Shown: positions 3,923 to 17,537, counted from the first letter of the stretch. The stretch is DNA of 64,000 nt from a bacterium (GCA_029565675.1 JAKQNP010000025.1:1-64000); one strand, 5' to 3'. The notes: a model not told the origin generated them from the sequence alone. Program-made: numbers and translations.

Positions 3923-4885
3923 TTACAATTTTGAGATATATTCTTTCGTTTGCAGCACTGTTTCGGGTTTGGTTTCATACGGCAGCACGCCGGTGCCGAT
4001 ACAGACCTTTTCTCTGCCTTTTGCCAACGCGACAACGCGATCAACCTCTTTAAAGACAGCGGGCAGGTCGCCTTCGGATAGAATCAATGGATCCATGTTG
4101 ATTCTGACCATCACTTCCGGATGCTTTTTCATCTGTTCCATAAATTCTTGCTGATTGGTCTCGGAAGGGCAAATGACATAGCCTGTGCCGGTCTCCATAA
4201 TCGATGCAAGAATGGAAGTCGTATCTCCGCCGATAATGCAGGGCACCGGATGGCCCACGATGGCTGTGGCCTGATCGATGATCGACTTCAACGGCGGCAG
4301 CACAACATCGCTGAAAATCTGCGGCGGGATGATTGGCGGCGTTGCGGCTGATTCAAAGAAGGCAATATCCAATCCCTGCTCCACAATCGCCCTGCAAAAA
4401 TTAACCTGTCCTTCGACTATGTGATTCAAAGCTTGCATGACACTCGCCGGGTCCATGACGATTTCCAACAGCAGCGTTTCAAATCGCACCAGATTGCTGG
4501 CAATAGAAAAGGGCCCGCTGACGGGTATGCGGACATCCGCTTCAGGAAGAACGCGGGCAAGACGCTTTGCGGCCTCTATTGCCATCGGAATTCGACCGGC
4601 GCTCTGGGGATCAAACAAGGGCAATTCGCTCATTTCCTTCATCGATGAGCAGAGATGATGGGTAATTGCCGGAATGCCGTTAAGTTTTGGCTTTTCGATC
4701 GTCGAGCCATACGCTTCGGGTTCCAGGTTATAGATATCGATACCCACGACGACGGGTGAATGGTGATACAGTTCGAACGCCTTTTTATGGCCCTGGAACA
4801 GCATCTCACCATCCCGGGAAGCTTCCCAGGGGGATTTGCCGATCAAGCTGGCAGCGTGCTCATAAACTGCGGGAGTAAATTTCAT
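3923..4885 (-). CDS. Uroporphyrinogen decarboxylase-fold methyltransferase (MtaA/CmuA type)
   Basis: 320 residues, the last gene of a leftward run of five. It has the UroD fold used by methylcobamide:coenzyme M methyltransferases and by substrate-demethylating MT1/MT2 enzymes: an RIPVSGPFSIASNL segment (about 120-133), EQGLDIAFFESAATPP (169-184), VPCIIGGDTTSI in place of the usual H-x-C-G zinc loop (Cys216), and CIGTGVLPYETKPET near the C terminus (Cys295). True HemE is unlikely because this gene sits behind a corrinoid protein and folate genes. The likely job is methyl transfer between a methylated substrate and the corrinoid protein encoded just upstream. The substrate cannot be read from the sequence. 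Confidence 0.8.
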   Translation of the reverse strand: MKFTPAVYEHAASLIGKSPWEASRDGEMLFQGHKKAFELYHHSPVVVGIDIYNLEPEAYGSTIEKPKLNGIPAITHHLCSSMKEMSELPLFDPQSAGRIPMAIEAAKRLARVLPEADVRIPVSGPFSIASNLVRFETLLLEIVMDPASVMQALNHIVEGQVNFCRAIVEQGLDIAFFESAATPPIIPPQIFSDVVLPPLKSIIDQATAIVGHPVPCIIGGDTTSILASIMETGTGYVICPSETNQQEFMEQMKKHPEVMVRINMDPLILSEGDLPAVFKEVDRVVALAKGREKVCIGTGVLPYETKPETVLQTKEYISKL

Positions 4886-5005
4886 CTTCTCACGATCCTT
4901 ATATTAAATGAACCTTCAGCAGCCGAATTCTTATCGATCGAATTCATCAAAATCATCTTAACGATTTTATTGTATTTGCATTAGCCACGATTTGCAGCCC
5001 TGTAC

Positions 5006-5133
5006 GGTGCACAGCACCGGATCCTCACAGAAAATAAACCTGTTTGCGATACGCAAAAGGTGAAAAGTTCCCTTTTCGCAACCGCATAGAAAATAAGCGA
5101 TTGAATGTTTGATGATTCGGTTAACACCGAATC
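5006..5133 (-). repeat. Dispersed double-hairpin repeat, copy A (inverted)
   Basis: The reverse complement of this stretch matches copies at 14093-14223 and 17406-17537. It has a hairpin at each end (GATTCGGTTAACACCGAATC at 5114-5133, and GGTGCACAGCACC near 5006-5018). About 85 bp lies between them and includes TTCTATGCGGTTGCGAAAAGG. It occupies most of the gap between the corrinoid-protein gene and the UroD-type gene, inside the operon. Confidence 0.75.
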
Positions 5134-5241
5134 TGGGTTGCACCCGTTTGGTACAAATATCCGATTGTATTTATCGGATTTTCGGTGCTTTGCACCGTAA
5201 CCGGGGTCAGTGCTGCCCCGTCTGACGACAGGACACCACGG

Positions 5242-5904
5242 TTAAACATTCTTATTCAGATATTCCACGGCCTCATGCGGATTAGGCGAATAGAAATCCG
5301 CGCCTATGCGGGTGCAAAAATCCCGGGTGATGGGGGCACCGCCGATCAACACTTTGGTATCCGGATATATTTCCTTGATTTCCTTGACGCTGCTTTCCAT
5401 GTTGCGCATGGTGGTCGTCAGCAAAGAGGAGAGCCCGACAAAACAACCGGGATGCTGAACAATGGCGTCCAGGAATTTGCTGGTCGGGACATCCATGCCG
5501 AGATCGATCACTTCAAAGCCATTTCCGCGGATCATCATGGCCACCAGATTCTTGCCGATGTCATGCAGATCACCGGCAACGGTTCCGATGACAAATTTTC
5601 CTTTGTGTTTCACTTGATCGGATTCGAAGAATGGCTTGATATGCTTCATGACCGCATTCATGGCCTCGCCGGAGATAATCAGGTGGGCGACAAACGCCTT
5701 CCCTTCGCTAAACTCTTTGCCGACTCTATCCATTCCCAGCATGCAGCCCTTCAAAAGATCGTCCGGGTCAATACCGTTCTTTAACGCTTCCGCCGCAATC
5801 TCATCAGCGCCGTCTTGATCTTTCATGTCGGGTGGAAACCAGGCTGATCTGGATATCTTCCCTTTGGCGATGCAATGGGCTATTCTTTCAACCACGTCTT
5901 GCAT
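5242..5904 (-). CDS. Corrinoid (B12-binding) methyltransferase protein, MtbC1 family
   Basis: About 220 residues. The start at 5904 is preferred over 5910 because the GGGAG motif is then correctly spaced. The N-terminal half is the helical B12-binding cap (DDLLKGCMLGMDRVGKEFSEG). The C-terminal half is the Rossmann-like cobalamin domain with the base-off ligand motif D-x-H-x-x-G (GDLHDIGKN, His near 114), then GLSSLLTTTMRNM and a GGAPI segment. It carries the methyl group on cobalamin between the two methyltransferases of this operon. The gap to the next gene downstream is filled by repeat copy A. Confidence 0.93.
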   Translation of the reverse strand: MQDVVERIAHCIAKGKISRSAWFPPDMKDQDGADEIAAEALKNGIDPDDLLKGCMLGMDRVGKEFSEGKAFVAHLIISGEAMNAVMKHIKPFFESDQVKHKGKFVIGTVAGDLHDIGKNLVAMMIRGNGFEVIDLGMDVPTSKFLDAIVQHPGCFVGLSSLLTTTMRNMESSVKEIKEIYPDTKVLIGGAPITRDFCTRIGADFYSPNPHEAVEYLNKNV

Positions 5905-5923
5905 GATCATTCTCCCTCATTTA

Positions 5924-6811
5924 TCAGGTCAATTTGGCTTCCTGGACTATCGTCGGTGCAATGCTCTCCCACATCACCGGCATCAAGTGGATACCCCGAA
6001 CGCCTGTTATTTTTTTTACGGTTTGAATGATTTCAACCGCCATTTTGACGCCTTCTTCTTTTGGATCGCCCGCCTGGCTCATTCGATCGATGTATTCGGC
6101 ATTTATCTTGACGCCGGGCACTTGTTCCTTCATGTAGAGCAATGCTTTCGCTGATTTGACCGGCATGACGCCGGCGATAATCGCAATTTTTTCATGCAAA
6201 CCCATGGCGACAATCCGATCCATCCAGCGGCTGAAAATCTCCAGATCAAATACCGGCTGCGTTTGCACGAAATGCGCCCCGGCGTTGATTTTTTTATAGA
6301 GCCGGATCAACCGCATCTCAAACGGCTCGGCGAACGGATTGGCTGCTGCACCGATGACAAATTCCGGTGCCTTTTTCATTTCAGTCCCGGAAAGCAAAAA
6401 TCCGCTGTTCATTTGGGCGACCGTCGCAACCAGTTGGATGGAATCGAGATCAAAAACACCCCTGGCTTCGGGGTTGTCGCCGAATTTCTGGTAATCGCCA
6501 GTCAGACAGAGCACATTCTGGATACCCAGCGCAGCAGCGCCCAAAAGATCGCTTTGAATCGCCAATCTGTTGCGGTCGCGGCAGGTCATCTGGATGATCG
6601 GCTCAACGCCTTCATCCAGCAAGATCTTTGCAGATGCAATGCTCGACAGGCGGGCAATGGCCGTCTGGTTATCGGTGATATTGACGGCATCGACAAAGCC
6701 CTTGAAATATTTTGCCTTATTCCGGATTGCATCGCCGTTGCAGCTTTGCGGCGGTCCAATTTCACCGCACCAAACGAATTGTTTCGATTCAAGCTTCTCT
6801 TTGAAGGTCAT
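5924..6811 (-). CDS. metF: Methylenetetrahydrofolate reductase
   Basis: 295 residues, a full-length MTHFR TIM barrel: CGEIGPPQS at the start, DAVNITDNQTA, VEPIIQMTCRDRNR, VLCLTGDYQ, the FVQTQPVFDLE substrate region and GVMPVKSAKAL. It interconverts methyl-THF and methylene-THF using flavin. It overlaps the upstream Cys-rich gene by 23 bp and precedes the corrinoid protein by 19 bp, so the three are co-translated. Together with that Cys-rich partner it resembles the MetVF type of acetogens, which lacks the C-terminal regulatory domain. Confidence 0.95.
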   Translation of the reverse strand: MTFKEKLESKQFVWCGEIGPPQSCNGDAIRNKAKYFKGFVDAVNITDNQTAIARLSSIASAKILLDEGVEPIIQMTCRDRNRLAIQSDLLGAAALGIQNVLCLTGDYQKFGDNPEARGVFDLDSIQLVATVAQMNSGFLLSGTEMKKAPEFVIGAAANPFAEPFEMRLIRLYKKINAGAHFVQTQPVFDLEIFSRWMDRIVAMGLHEKIAIIAGVMPVKSAKALLYMKEQVPGVKINAEYIDRMSQAGDPKEEGVKMAVEIIQTVKKITGVRGIHLMPVMWESIAPTIVQEAKLT

Positions 6812-7247
6812 CAGCGATTCTGTCCTTCACTCTTTGTTTGTCATTGCGAACCAGCCAGATGGGTGCATCGATTCGTTTTTTGAATACATTCAGCCACGCC
6901 GATGTCCCTTCCAGGTTCCAGTTGTGAATTTTGTTCAGCTTGTATAACAGACTGATGCGATGCAGCCTCCTGGAACGAAAATAGATCCGGTACCACACGC
7001 ATTTTCTTTCCGGATACACCTCACAAGATCCATCTTCGCCGGTTCCCCCACAGGGACCGTTGCGCAATCGTTTTGGGCAACGCTGGCAACAGATGAATGC
7101 TGTCGAGGATAAAATACATTCACCACAATGCTGACAACCAAACAGCGGCACTTTGATCAGGTCTTCAAAAAAAAGAAAAAACCGCGAGAATTTTCTTTCG
7201 CGTGCAGAAATGGGAGGTTTGCATAAAGAAACCAAATCATTTGGCAA
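6789..7247 (-). CDS. metV: MetV-like zinc/cysteine-rich partner of methylenetetrahydrofolate reductase
   Basis: 152 residues. A TTG start at 7247 with GAGGA seven bases upstream. The core matches the MTHFR C-terminal (MetV) family: FGCQHCGEC (Cys38, 41, 44), a CCQRCPKRLRNGPCGG block (Cys53-66) and further Cys at 75 and 83. In acetogens MetV binds metal, pairs with MetF and links it to an electron carrier. The coupling here (23-bp overlap with metF) supports the same complex. The tail after residue 90 is basic and of unknown role. Confidence 0.85.
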   Translation of the reverse strand: MPNDLVSLCKPPISARERKFSRFFLFFEDLIKVPLFGCQHCGECILSSTAFICCQRCPKRLRNGPCGGTGEDGSCEVYPERKCVWYRIYFRSRRLHRISLLYKLNKIHNWNLEGTSAWLNVFKKRIDAPIWLVRNDKQRVKDRIADDLQREA

Positions 7248-7394
7248 AGGACTTTCCTCGGTTTTATTTTGAGGCTGATGTGTGATTTAACCTAATTTGA
7301 AAGGCTGAGGCAAAGGCCAAAACAGGCTTTGCTATCGACTCGGTCTTTTCGTGAAACGAATTGCAGCATTTCCATCTTTGGGATTTCTGGGCTT

Positions 7395-8267
7395 TTATGA
7401 ACAATACATCATCACCCGCATCACGCCTTGCACCCCTTCCATCTTGAGCACATCTTTTAGACATTGCATGGCCGGATCATCATCGGGTAAAAGCGAGTAT
7501 TTTCTTTTTACGGAACCGATGATGGTGTTCAATCCCAATGGCATGGCCAGGGTGAGAAAAGCACTTTCCAGTGGACCTTTCAATGGAGAACCGTCCGGTT
7601 TCTTGGAAGGCAGCATCTGGGTAAAATTGCTGATTCCGACGGACATGTTGATGCCGGTAAAATCGCTGTCCTGATGGATCCTTGTCATCGCATTCATGAG
7701 CCGCTTGAAATCCCCTTTTGCATCGCTTCCAATCGGCATGATACCCGGATCGAGAACAAGCTGATCATTGCTCACGTTGTCGATGTGTTGGCGAGCGAAC
7801 CGCACCATGGATTTCGCGGTCGCCCAGATTTGCTCGGCTGTTCTGTTCATGCCGATTTCACCGGCGTCATCTTTGCCTTCTGTGATGAGCAGAATGGGAA
7901 TAAACGGCTGTTTGGCATAGAGGTCGAACATTTCCAGGCGAGCTTCGGAAATGGAATTCAGAATCGGTTTTTTGTTGCCTGCCCGTTCGACATCATAAGC
8001 CGCCAATCCTGCTGCCGCCAATTCAGGATCAGGGGTATCGATTGCCAGCGGCAGCGAAATATGCTGTTGAATTCTCTTAATCACGTCGGCCATAAAGCCA
8101 GGCGAACGGGGACCAACGTTGACATCGATATAAGCCGCGCCTTTTTCAGCTTGAAATTGTGCCAGATCAACGATGCCCGCAATATCATTTTCCTCGAACA
8201 ATCGATGAGTCGAGGGGACAGAGTCATTGATCGACTCGCCGATAACGGTCAGACCGGGAATACTCAA
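7395..8267 (-). CDS. Pterin-binding methyltransferase (methyltetrahydrofolate:corrinoid methyltransferase, AcsE-like)
   Basis: 290 residues, the first gene of the operon. A TTG start with a strong AGGAG at 8276-8280. The dihydropteroate-synthase-like barrel shows VIGESIND, AYIDVNVGP, LPLAIDTPDPELAAAGL, KPILNSIS, LVLDPGIMPIGSD and GINMSVGISNFTQMLP. These are the MeTr signatures, distinct from FolP. It should move the methyl group between the corrinoid protein and tetrahydrofolate, next to MetVF. No cobalamin riboswitch is visible in the 180 bp upstream. Confidence 0.9.
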   Translation of the reverse strand: MSIPGLTVIGESINDSVPSTHRLFEENDIAGIVDLAQFQAEKGAAYIDVNVGPRSPGFMADVIKRIQQHISLPLAIDTPDPELAAAGLAAYDVERAGNKKPILNSISEARLEMFDLYAKQPFIPILLITEGKDDAGEIGMNRTAEQIWATAKSMVRFARQHIDNVSNDQLVLDPGIMPIGSDAKGDFKRLMNAMTRIHQDSDFTGINMSVGISNFTQMLPSKKPDGSPLKGPLESAFLTLAMPLGLNTIIGSVKRKYSLLPDDDPAMQCLKDVLKMEGVQGVMRVMMYCS

Positions 8268-14002: not shown

Positions 14003-14092
14003 CCCGGGAGACAGCAGTGCCCCGGCACAGGAAACCACCCGGCGAAATTGCAGCCCTCAGAGCGAAAATTTGACCGGACTTGTTCCGACCCA

Positions 14093-14223
14093 GATTCGGT
14101 GTTAACCGAAGCAAGAAATATTCACTCGCCTATTCTTTATGGGGTTGCGCAAAGGGTACCCTTCATCTTTGGTGTATTGCCATCAGATTGATTTTCTGGG
14201 GTATTCGGTGCTTCGCACCGAAT
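14093..14223 (+). repeat. Dispersed double-hairpin repeat, copy B
   Basis: The left hairpin GATTCGGTGTTAACCGAA starts at 14093; the right hairpin ATTCGGTGCTTCGCACCGAAT is at 14203-14223. The interior (TTCTTTATGGGGTTGCG, GCCATCAGATTGATTTTC) matches copies A and C. It lies between the aminopeptidase and TPR genes. Confidence 0.8.
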
Positions 14224-14225
14224 AT

Positions 14226-14425
14226 AGAGCTGACCGACACGATGCAAAAATTGTAACAAATTTTTGTTCTGAGAGTGATTGGTGACAGTCGTGTTTGCTT
14301 CATTTCATTGCATTGTTCCGATGCAGTGCCGGCCGGTGATTTTGTTGCAAGACGTTAACTATTTTAAAAAAGGTTAAATATTATGCAATTAAAATACGTT
14401 ATAGGTCTGGTCGCAATTCTGGCAA
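14226..14425 (+). repeat. Segment duplicated at 36678-36876 (promoter and start of TPR gene)
   Basis: GAGCTGACCGACACGATGC onward is nearly identical to 36678 onward through about 130 noncoding bp. The match then continues with lower identity into the first codons of the TPR gene. It includes the palindrome-rich GTGCCGGCCGGTG motif. High conservation of the noncoding part suggests a recent copy or a constrained upstream region. Confidence 0.85.
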
Positions 14426-17220: not shown

Positions 17221-17405
17221 TAGGAATTTTGATTTTGTTGGGGGTCAACTGATAAACTGACAGGAACGGATAACCGATAATTTTGATGAATGATAATTTC
17301 CAGAAAAGGTACGAGAAATGTGCAAAACTGTTTGTATGTAAATATACAAGAGCCGATTTGTCAACTATGCTGGCGAAACTCTCACAAAAATCAGTTTCGT
17401 TCTCA

Positions 17406-17537
17406 GATTCGGTGTTCACCGAATCAAAAAACATTCAATCTCTTGTTCTTTATGCGGTTGTGAAATGGGCACTTGTCACCCTCTGTGCATTGCTATCAGA
17501 TTGATTTTATATGAGATCCGGTGCTGCGCACCGGATC
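17406..17537 (+). repeat. Dispersed double-hairpin repeat, copy C
   Basis: The left hairpin GATTCGGTGTTCACCGAATC is at 17406-17425; the right hairpin GATCCGGTGC-TGC-GCACCGGATC is at 17515-17537, with a 10-bp perfect stem. The interior TTCTTTATGCGGTTG and CTATCAGATTGATTTTA match copies A, B and D. It fills the gap between the truncated GT4 and the nucleotidyltransferase gene. The rest of 17221-17581 shows nothing else. Confidence 0.85.

Follow-up and report, generated by a model that had tools for sequence, protein, structure and literature searches.

The window, i.e., the whole stretch of 64,000 nucleotides that was analyzed (GCA_029565675.1 JAKQNP010000025.1:1-64000), belongs to an uncultured candidate division KSB1 bacterium, which agrees with the FCB-type organism proposed in an initial annotation of this DNA. 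The genome is a MAG that is 95% complete. Five open reading frames, all on the minus strand, are found within positions 8267-3923, and the five genes and their domain identities were as first annotated, with all Pfam scores above the cut-off. The first gene (7395..8267, 290 aa, TTG start) encodes a methyl-THF:corrinoid methyltransferase-like protein with a pterin-binding TIM barrel (PF00809 Pterin_bind, 42.6 bits), called pterin methyltransferase in the following. Next are the two subunits of methylene-THF reductase, the FeS/Zn subunit MetV (6789..7247, 152 aa, TTG start, PF12225 MetV/DUF5981, 92.2 bits) and the flavin subunit MetF (5924..6811, 295 aa, PF02219 MTHFR, 134.2 bits). The fourth gene encodes a stand-alone corrinoid protein (5242..5910, 222 aa, PF02607, 55.9 bits, and PF02310, 92.5 bits), and the last one a UroD-fold protein of a zinc-less, MtaA-related subfamily (3923..4885, 320 aa, PF01208 URO-D, 109.7 bits). 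The initial annotation had named motifs and overlaps as its basis; the motifs are present, but the overlaps were overstated, because only MetV and MetF overlap, by 23 nt. The intergenic gaps are 147 bp between the pterin methyltransferase and MetV, 13 bp between MetF and the corrinoid gene, and 356 bp between the latter and the UroD gene.

The 356-bp gap carries an interspersed structured repeat (4995..5146, minus strand), recognized by its genome copies and its RNA fold. About 40 copies of a core of approximately 133 bp were scored in the genome (132 candidates), with identities of 79-88%, and the RNA fold of the gap had a z value of -5.7. The repeat folds strongly and has CGGTG...CACCG-type hairpins at both ends, and two further copies are present in the window (14088-14232 and 17404-17533, both plus strand). 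The repeat did not match any known RNA element in Rfam, and a terminator and promoter scan gave signals at chance level.

The block was compared with a second genome of the genus, the KSB1 MAG of isolate Zod_Metabat.28. All five genes are kept with 83-91% amino acid identity, while both flanks are different, and thus the conservation of the block is far beyond chance. The UroD gene is included in both genomes despite the changed flanks, which favors a joint function of the five genes. In the sister genome, the gap upstream of the UroD gene has shrunk to about 100 bp in comparison with the window, and the pterin methyltransferase starts with ATG instead of TTG. A transposase-like open reading frame lies near the sister block (L040:4281-4862).

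The first four genes form the core of the block. The best NCBIfam match of the pterin methyltransferase was PRK07535, with 106.8 bits under a cut-off of 259, and NF040758 reached 67.6 of the required 370 bits. Its residues D77, N104, D173, and N214 are conserved with the AcsE of a KSB1 relative, and we take them to be the Asp and Asn residues of the pterin site, with roles transferred from Moorella MeTr. The MetF protein matched the respective half of PRK08645 with 254.9 bits. The metV gene adjoins metF, and neither rnfC2 nor hdr/mvhD is found beside them, which is the Type II arrangement of MetVF (PMC8760232). In the corrinoid protein the DxHxxG motif is intact (DLHDIGKN); it reached 170.7 bits with an MtgC-type NCBIfam model, below the cut-off, and its best PDB relatives were stand-alone methyltransferase corrinoid proteins (1y80, E 4.6e-43). 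The module of methyl-corrinoid, THF, and MetVF that had been proposed initially was upheld.

A survey of 82 genomes of the KSB1 phylum revealed close homologues of the pterin methyltransferase in 17 and of the corrinoid protein in 27 genomes. The pterin methyltransferase co-occurred with the corrinoid gene (p = 3e-6) and with Fhs (p = 4e-4) in tests that ignore phylogeny. The two genes are adjacent in 11 KSB1 loci, several of which include MetV-MetF, and two of which, in G066 and G015, include Fhs and FolD in the order Fhs-FolD-regulator-pterin methyltransferase-MetV-MetF-corrinoid gene. The UroD gene of the block was found beside the pair in two of the 11 loci, both of this genus.

The corrinoid subfamily has also other neighbors. 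In seven relatives (G013, G036, G037, G038, G041, G043, and G044) it adjoins a homocysteine methyltransferase, and several of these loci contain the MetH-type activation domain PF02965. Evidence that the corrinoid protein belongs to methionine synthase had been named beforehand as speaking against the proposed route, and these seven loci partly provide it. In a family without the pterin methyltransferase the corrinoid gene lies beside PF02574, PF02965, and a UroD-fold protein that has kept its HICG and GC motifs. Sets of a zinc-type UroD, a corrinoid protein, a homocysteine methyltransferase, and an activation domain, all without a folate methyltransferase, were seen at L164, L165, L166, and L174, and some sets adjoin a FeFe-hydrogenase-like gene; they possibly serve a folate-independent synthesis of methionine from a methylated substrate. 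These arrangements suggest that the corrinoid protein is a hub, which would exchange its folate, homocysteine, and UroD-type partner enzymes across lineages.

The UroD-fold protein was modeled, as had been suggested initially. The AlphaFold model had a pLDDT of 95.4, and Foldseek placed it in the UroD/MtaA fold, with HemE structures (TM 0.78-0.82) and MtaA (4ay7, TM 0.82) as nearest relatives. The hemE model TIGR01464 did not match at E 1e-3; a HemE function was rejected, and the earlier view of a UroD fold that is not HemE was correct. The best family matches were MtaA and CmuA models, both below the cut-off (79.4 versus 244 bits and 71.3 versus 235 bits). The motif VPCIIGG, at about residues 214-220, had been read as an altered zinc loop. 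The loop is indeed altered, but the extent of the change had been understated: a profile alignment puts I217 at the position of the His, G219 at the first Cys, and T298/V300 at the second Cys, and all three zinc ligands of MtaA are lost across the aligned relatives of the subfamily. A mere local loop change was therefore rejected. KSB1 relatives have not kept the Cys of VPCIIGG, and many of the residues that are conserved in the subfamily are charged or polar, with E178, C239, R261, and N263 among the polar ones. O-demethylases have the zinc motif E-X14-E-X20-H; of this motif E178 is invariant, but conservation extends neither to the second acidic position nor to the His, and it was also rejected.

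In a single tree with SH-aLRT support only and long branches, the window protein grouped with its own subfamily. The genome has 33 URO-D family hits, the best of which is not a clear HemE. The candidate at C35:3909 was rejected, because its best model was MtaA-type and the hemE score was 86.6, with a cut-off of 303. A true HemE was not identified in the genome, and thus the outgroup of the tree is merely a distant UroD.

A scan of GTDB genomes retrieved 213 related UroD loci; the zinc-less subfamily comprises more than 200 loci from a dozen phyla. Neighborhoods were analyzed for the best 80 of the 213, which stem from Planctomycetota, Kiritimatiellota, Verrucomicrobia-type bacteria, Acidobacteriota, Omnitrophota, and other MAGs, and have hosts such as Pirellulales, Akkermansiaceae, and Bryobacteraceae. 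Among these 80, corrinoid genes lie near the UroD gene in the sister genome only. In other hosts the gene is surrounded by sugar-type oxidoreductase and transporter genes; its usual companions are Gfo/Idh, SSS symporter, Nramp-like, and 3-hydroxyisobutyrate-dehydrogenase-like genes and a second UroD gene. Within KSB1 the presence of the UroD gene is independent of the pterin methyltransferase (p = 0.53) and of the corrinoid gene (p = 0.58), in tests that ignore phylogeny. The initial annotation had presented the five genes as a complete route; its UroD step is unsupported as a general part of such a route.

These neighborhoods and the missing co-occurrence would be explained if the UroD-fold protein were unrelated to the other four proteins, i.e., a sugar- or polyol-related enzyme that is encoded downstream by chance. 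A paralogue in the same genome, which is 48% identical, indeed lies in a locus with Gfo/Idh, a second UroD gene, and an alpha-mannosidase-like gene, and in the window genome the repeat-bearing gap separates the UroD gene from the block. On the other hand, the gap is short in the sister genome, and strand and order are identical in two species with different flanks. This explanation has a substantial chance of being right, but somewhat below even.

A smaller probability was assigned to the view that follows the route of the initial annotation, with the UroD-fold protein acting as a zinc-free methyltransferase I, which would transfer the methyl group of a methylated compound to the corrinoid protein, from where the pterin methyltransferase would pass it on to THF for oxidation by MetVF. 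The triad is the same as in cdmBCA of Acetobacterium dehalogenans, and CdmB is zinc-free in structure and activity, in a tree rooted on UroD (PMC13222342). The loss of zinc is thus no disproof of methyl transfer by the UroD-fold protein, since this related methyltransferase works without zinc. The conservation of the block in the genus, the MtaA and CmuA models as best matches, and the other UroD-fold proteins that adjoin this corrinoid subfamily in relatives are in line with such a role. However, the restriction of nearby corrinoid genes to the sister genome among the best 80 of 213 loci, the neighbors elsewhere, and the lack of co-occurrence with the core genes in KSB1 argue against it, and the often charged or polar conserved residues differ from the aromatic cavity of CdmB (PMC13222342). 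It is still considerably less probable that the whole zinc-less subfamily, with members in Planctomycetota, Kiritimatiellota, KSB1, and others, represents a new class of corrinoid-dependent methyltransferases, the substrate of which would be polar and perhaps of a methylated sugar type. If this were true, the operon would be the only place seen that links the subfamily to corrinoid and folate partners and so reveals its chemistry.

The initial annotation had noted that no acetyl-CoA synthase genes lie nearby and had considered an oxidative branch. The genome search for acs and fhs genes that it recommended contradicted this premise: a complete CODH/ACS locus is present on a separate contig (C3:61499-75226), and Fhs at C35:11913. 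The C3 locus encodes AcsV/RACo, AcsC, an AcsB-AcsD fusion, CooS (scored on the orthologue of the sister genome), two CooC-type ATPases, a MetE-like protein that carries the motifs HxC and C, a homocysteine methyltransferase, and a GntR/LacI-type regulator. The same type of regulator lies beside the four-gene core in relatives. An AcsE was not found in this locus by HMM, and the pterin methyltransferase of the window is the single hit of its kind in the 95% complete MAG.

The AcsB-AcsD fusion has 1181 aa (L192:14874-18416; G000:C3:64871-68416). Open frames with ACS domain have 1182-1193 aa in five KSB1 genomes, and shorter AcsB frames are present in four others; titles and abstracts in the literature contained nothing specific on the fusion or on ACS of KSB1. 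The MetE/MtbA-like protein (L193:2166-3239; G000:C3:72166-73239) has the motifs HCCG and SPSCG and no Pfam match, and look-alikes occur in the ACS loci of other KSB1 genomes. It is a candidate for a core methionine synthase, a group that has been proposed to draw on CFeSP (PMC7857596).

All four parts of a methionine synthase are present as separate proteins. The homocysteine methyltransferase on C3 is the one PF02574 hit of the genome and stands alone, a single stand-alone activation domain (PF02965, with SPG motif) is encoded at C2:9771-10472, and the methyl-THF and corrinoid parts are those of the window. A MetH, judged by homocysteine and corrinoid domains, was not found in the 95% complete MAG. 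A further MetE-type protein (PF01717) and the MetE-like protein of the ACS locus would open alternative methionine routes. That the module is a dedicated split methionine synthase and nothing else is unlikely: the documented split MetH of Phaeobacter and Ruegeria (PMC12478193) and the homocysteine methyltransferases beside the corrinoid gene in relatives speak for it, but the homocysteine methyltransferase lies in the ACS locus and not at the module, reductases of the MetV type are characteristic of acetogens (PMC8760232), and the core has been retained in relatives that possess a full MetH.

The best explanation, which was given about an even chance on sequence grounds, is that the four core genes constitute a folate-to-corrinoid methyl-transfer module with partners elsewhere in the genome, and that the UroD gene is a genus-specific neighbor. 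MetV-MetF would interconvert methylene-THF and methyl-THF, and the pterin methyltransferase would shuttle methyl groups between methyl-THF and the corrinoid protein with its Co(I); the flow may be reductive or oxidative. As an AcsE was not found in the ACS locus, nor a second pterin methyltransferase or a MetH in the 95% complete MAG, the methyl group would most likely be used by, or delivered from, the CODH/ACS on C3, perhaps with CFeSP, and/or the split methionine synthase, with its homocysteine methyltransferase beside the ACS genes and its activation domain on C2. The UroD-fold protein may have been recruited to the block, and the general function of its family would not need linked corrinoid genes; a UroD-fold protein unrelated to the other four, which was scored separately, is compatible with this explanation.

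Neither partner is universal, because several KSB1 genomes have this pterin methyltransferase together with a full MetH, or without ACS. In addition, the ACS locus of G013 includes a true AcsE, and the same genome also has the pair of pterin methyltransferase and corrinoid gene, showing that the pair is not simply AcsE. It is possible that a MetH or AcsE was missed in the 95% complete MAG. With the four-gene module the picture of the organism changes from a possible methyl oxidizer without acetyl-CoA synthase to one with full CODH/ACS, the absent methyl-folate step of which is probably supplied by the operon. The locus also directs attention to a corrinoid protein that would act as a hub, and to a UroD subfamily that is large, unstudied, and devoid of metal ligands.

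Several known systems resemble the block in part. As in cdmBCA and the O-demethylases of acetogens (methyltransferase I, corrinoid protein, methyltransferase II), a methyltransferase I candidate, a corrinoid protein, and a THF methyltransferase are encoded together. In contrast to cdmBCA, the UroD-fold protein comes from a subfamily for which no link to corrinoid genes was seen outside this genus among the best 80 loci, the block includes MetV-MetF, and a reductive activase is not part of it (AcsV/RACo is encoded on C3). In Type 1 mlp clusters (PMC10418091) a corrinoid protein is also combined with a UroD-fold protein similar to MtaA, but the latter is almost always of the His-Cys-Cys type, whereas the window protein has no zinc ligand, and they lack the THF methyltransferase of the block. 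The methyl branch of the Wood-Ljungdahl pathway (AcsE, MetVF) shares the pterin methyltransferase and MetV-MetF, in a genome with CODH/ACS and Fhs; however, the partner in the window is an MtgC/MtbC-type corrinoid protein and not CFeSP, and the pterin methyltransferase shares no more than 25% identity with a KSB1 AcsE. The split MetH known experimentally from Phaeobacter and Ruegeria (MtgC-MtgD; PMC12478193) is likewise divided into methyl-THF, corrinoid, homocysteine, and activation modules, but here the parts are spread over three contigs and are coupled to MetVF and possibly to ACS. The four-gene core itself is a known kind of methyl-transfer machine between folate and a B12 protein.
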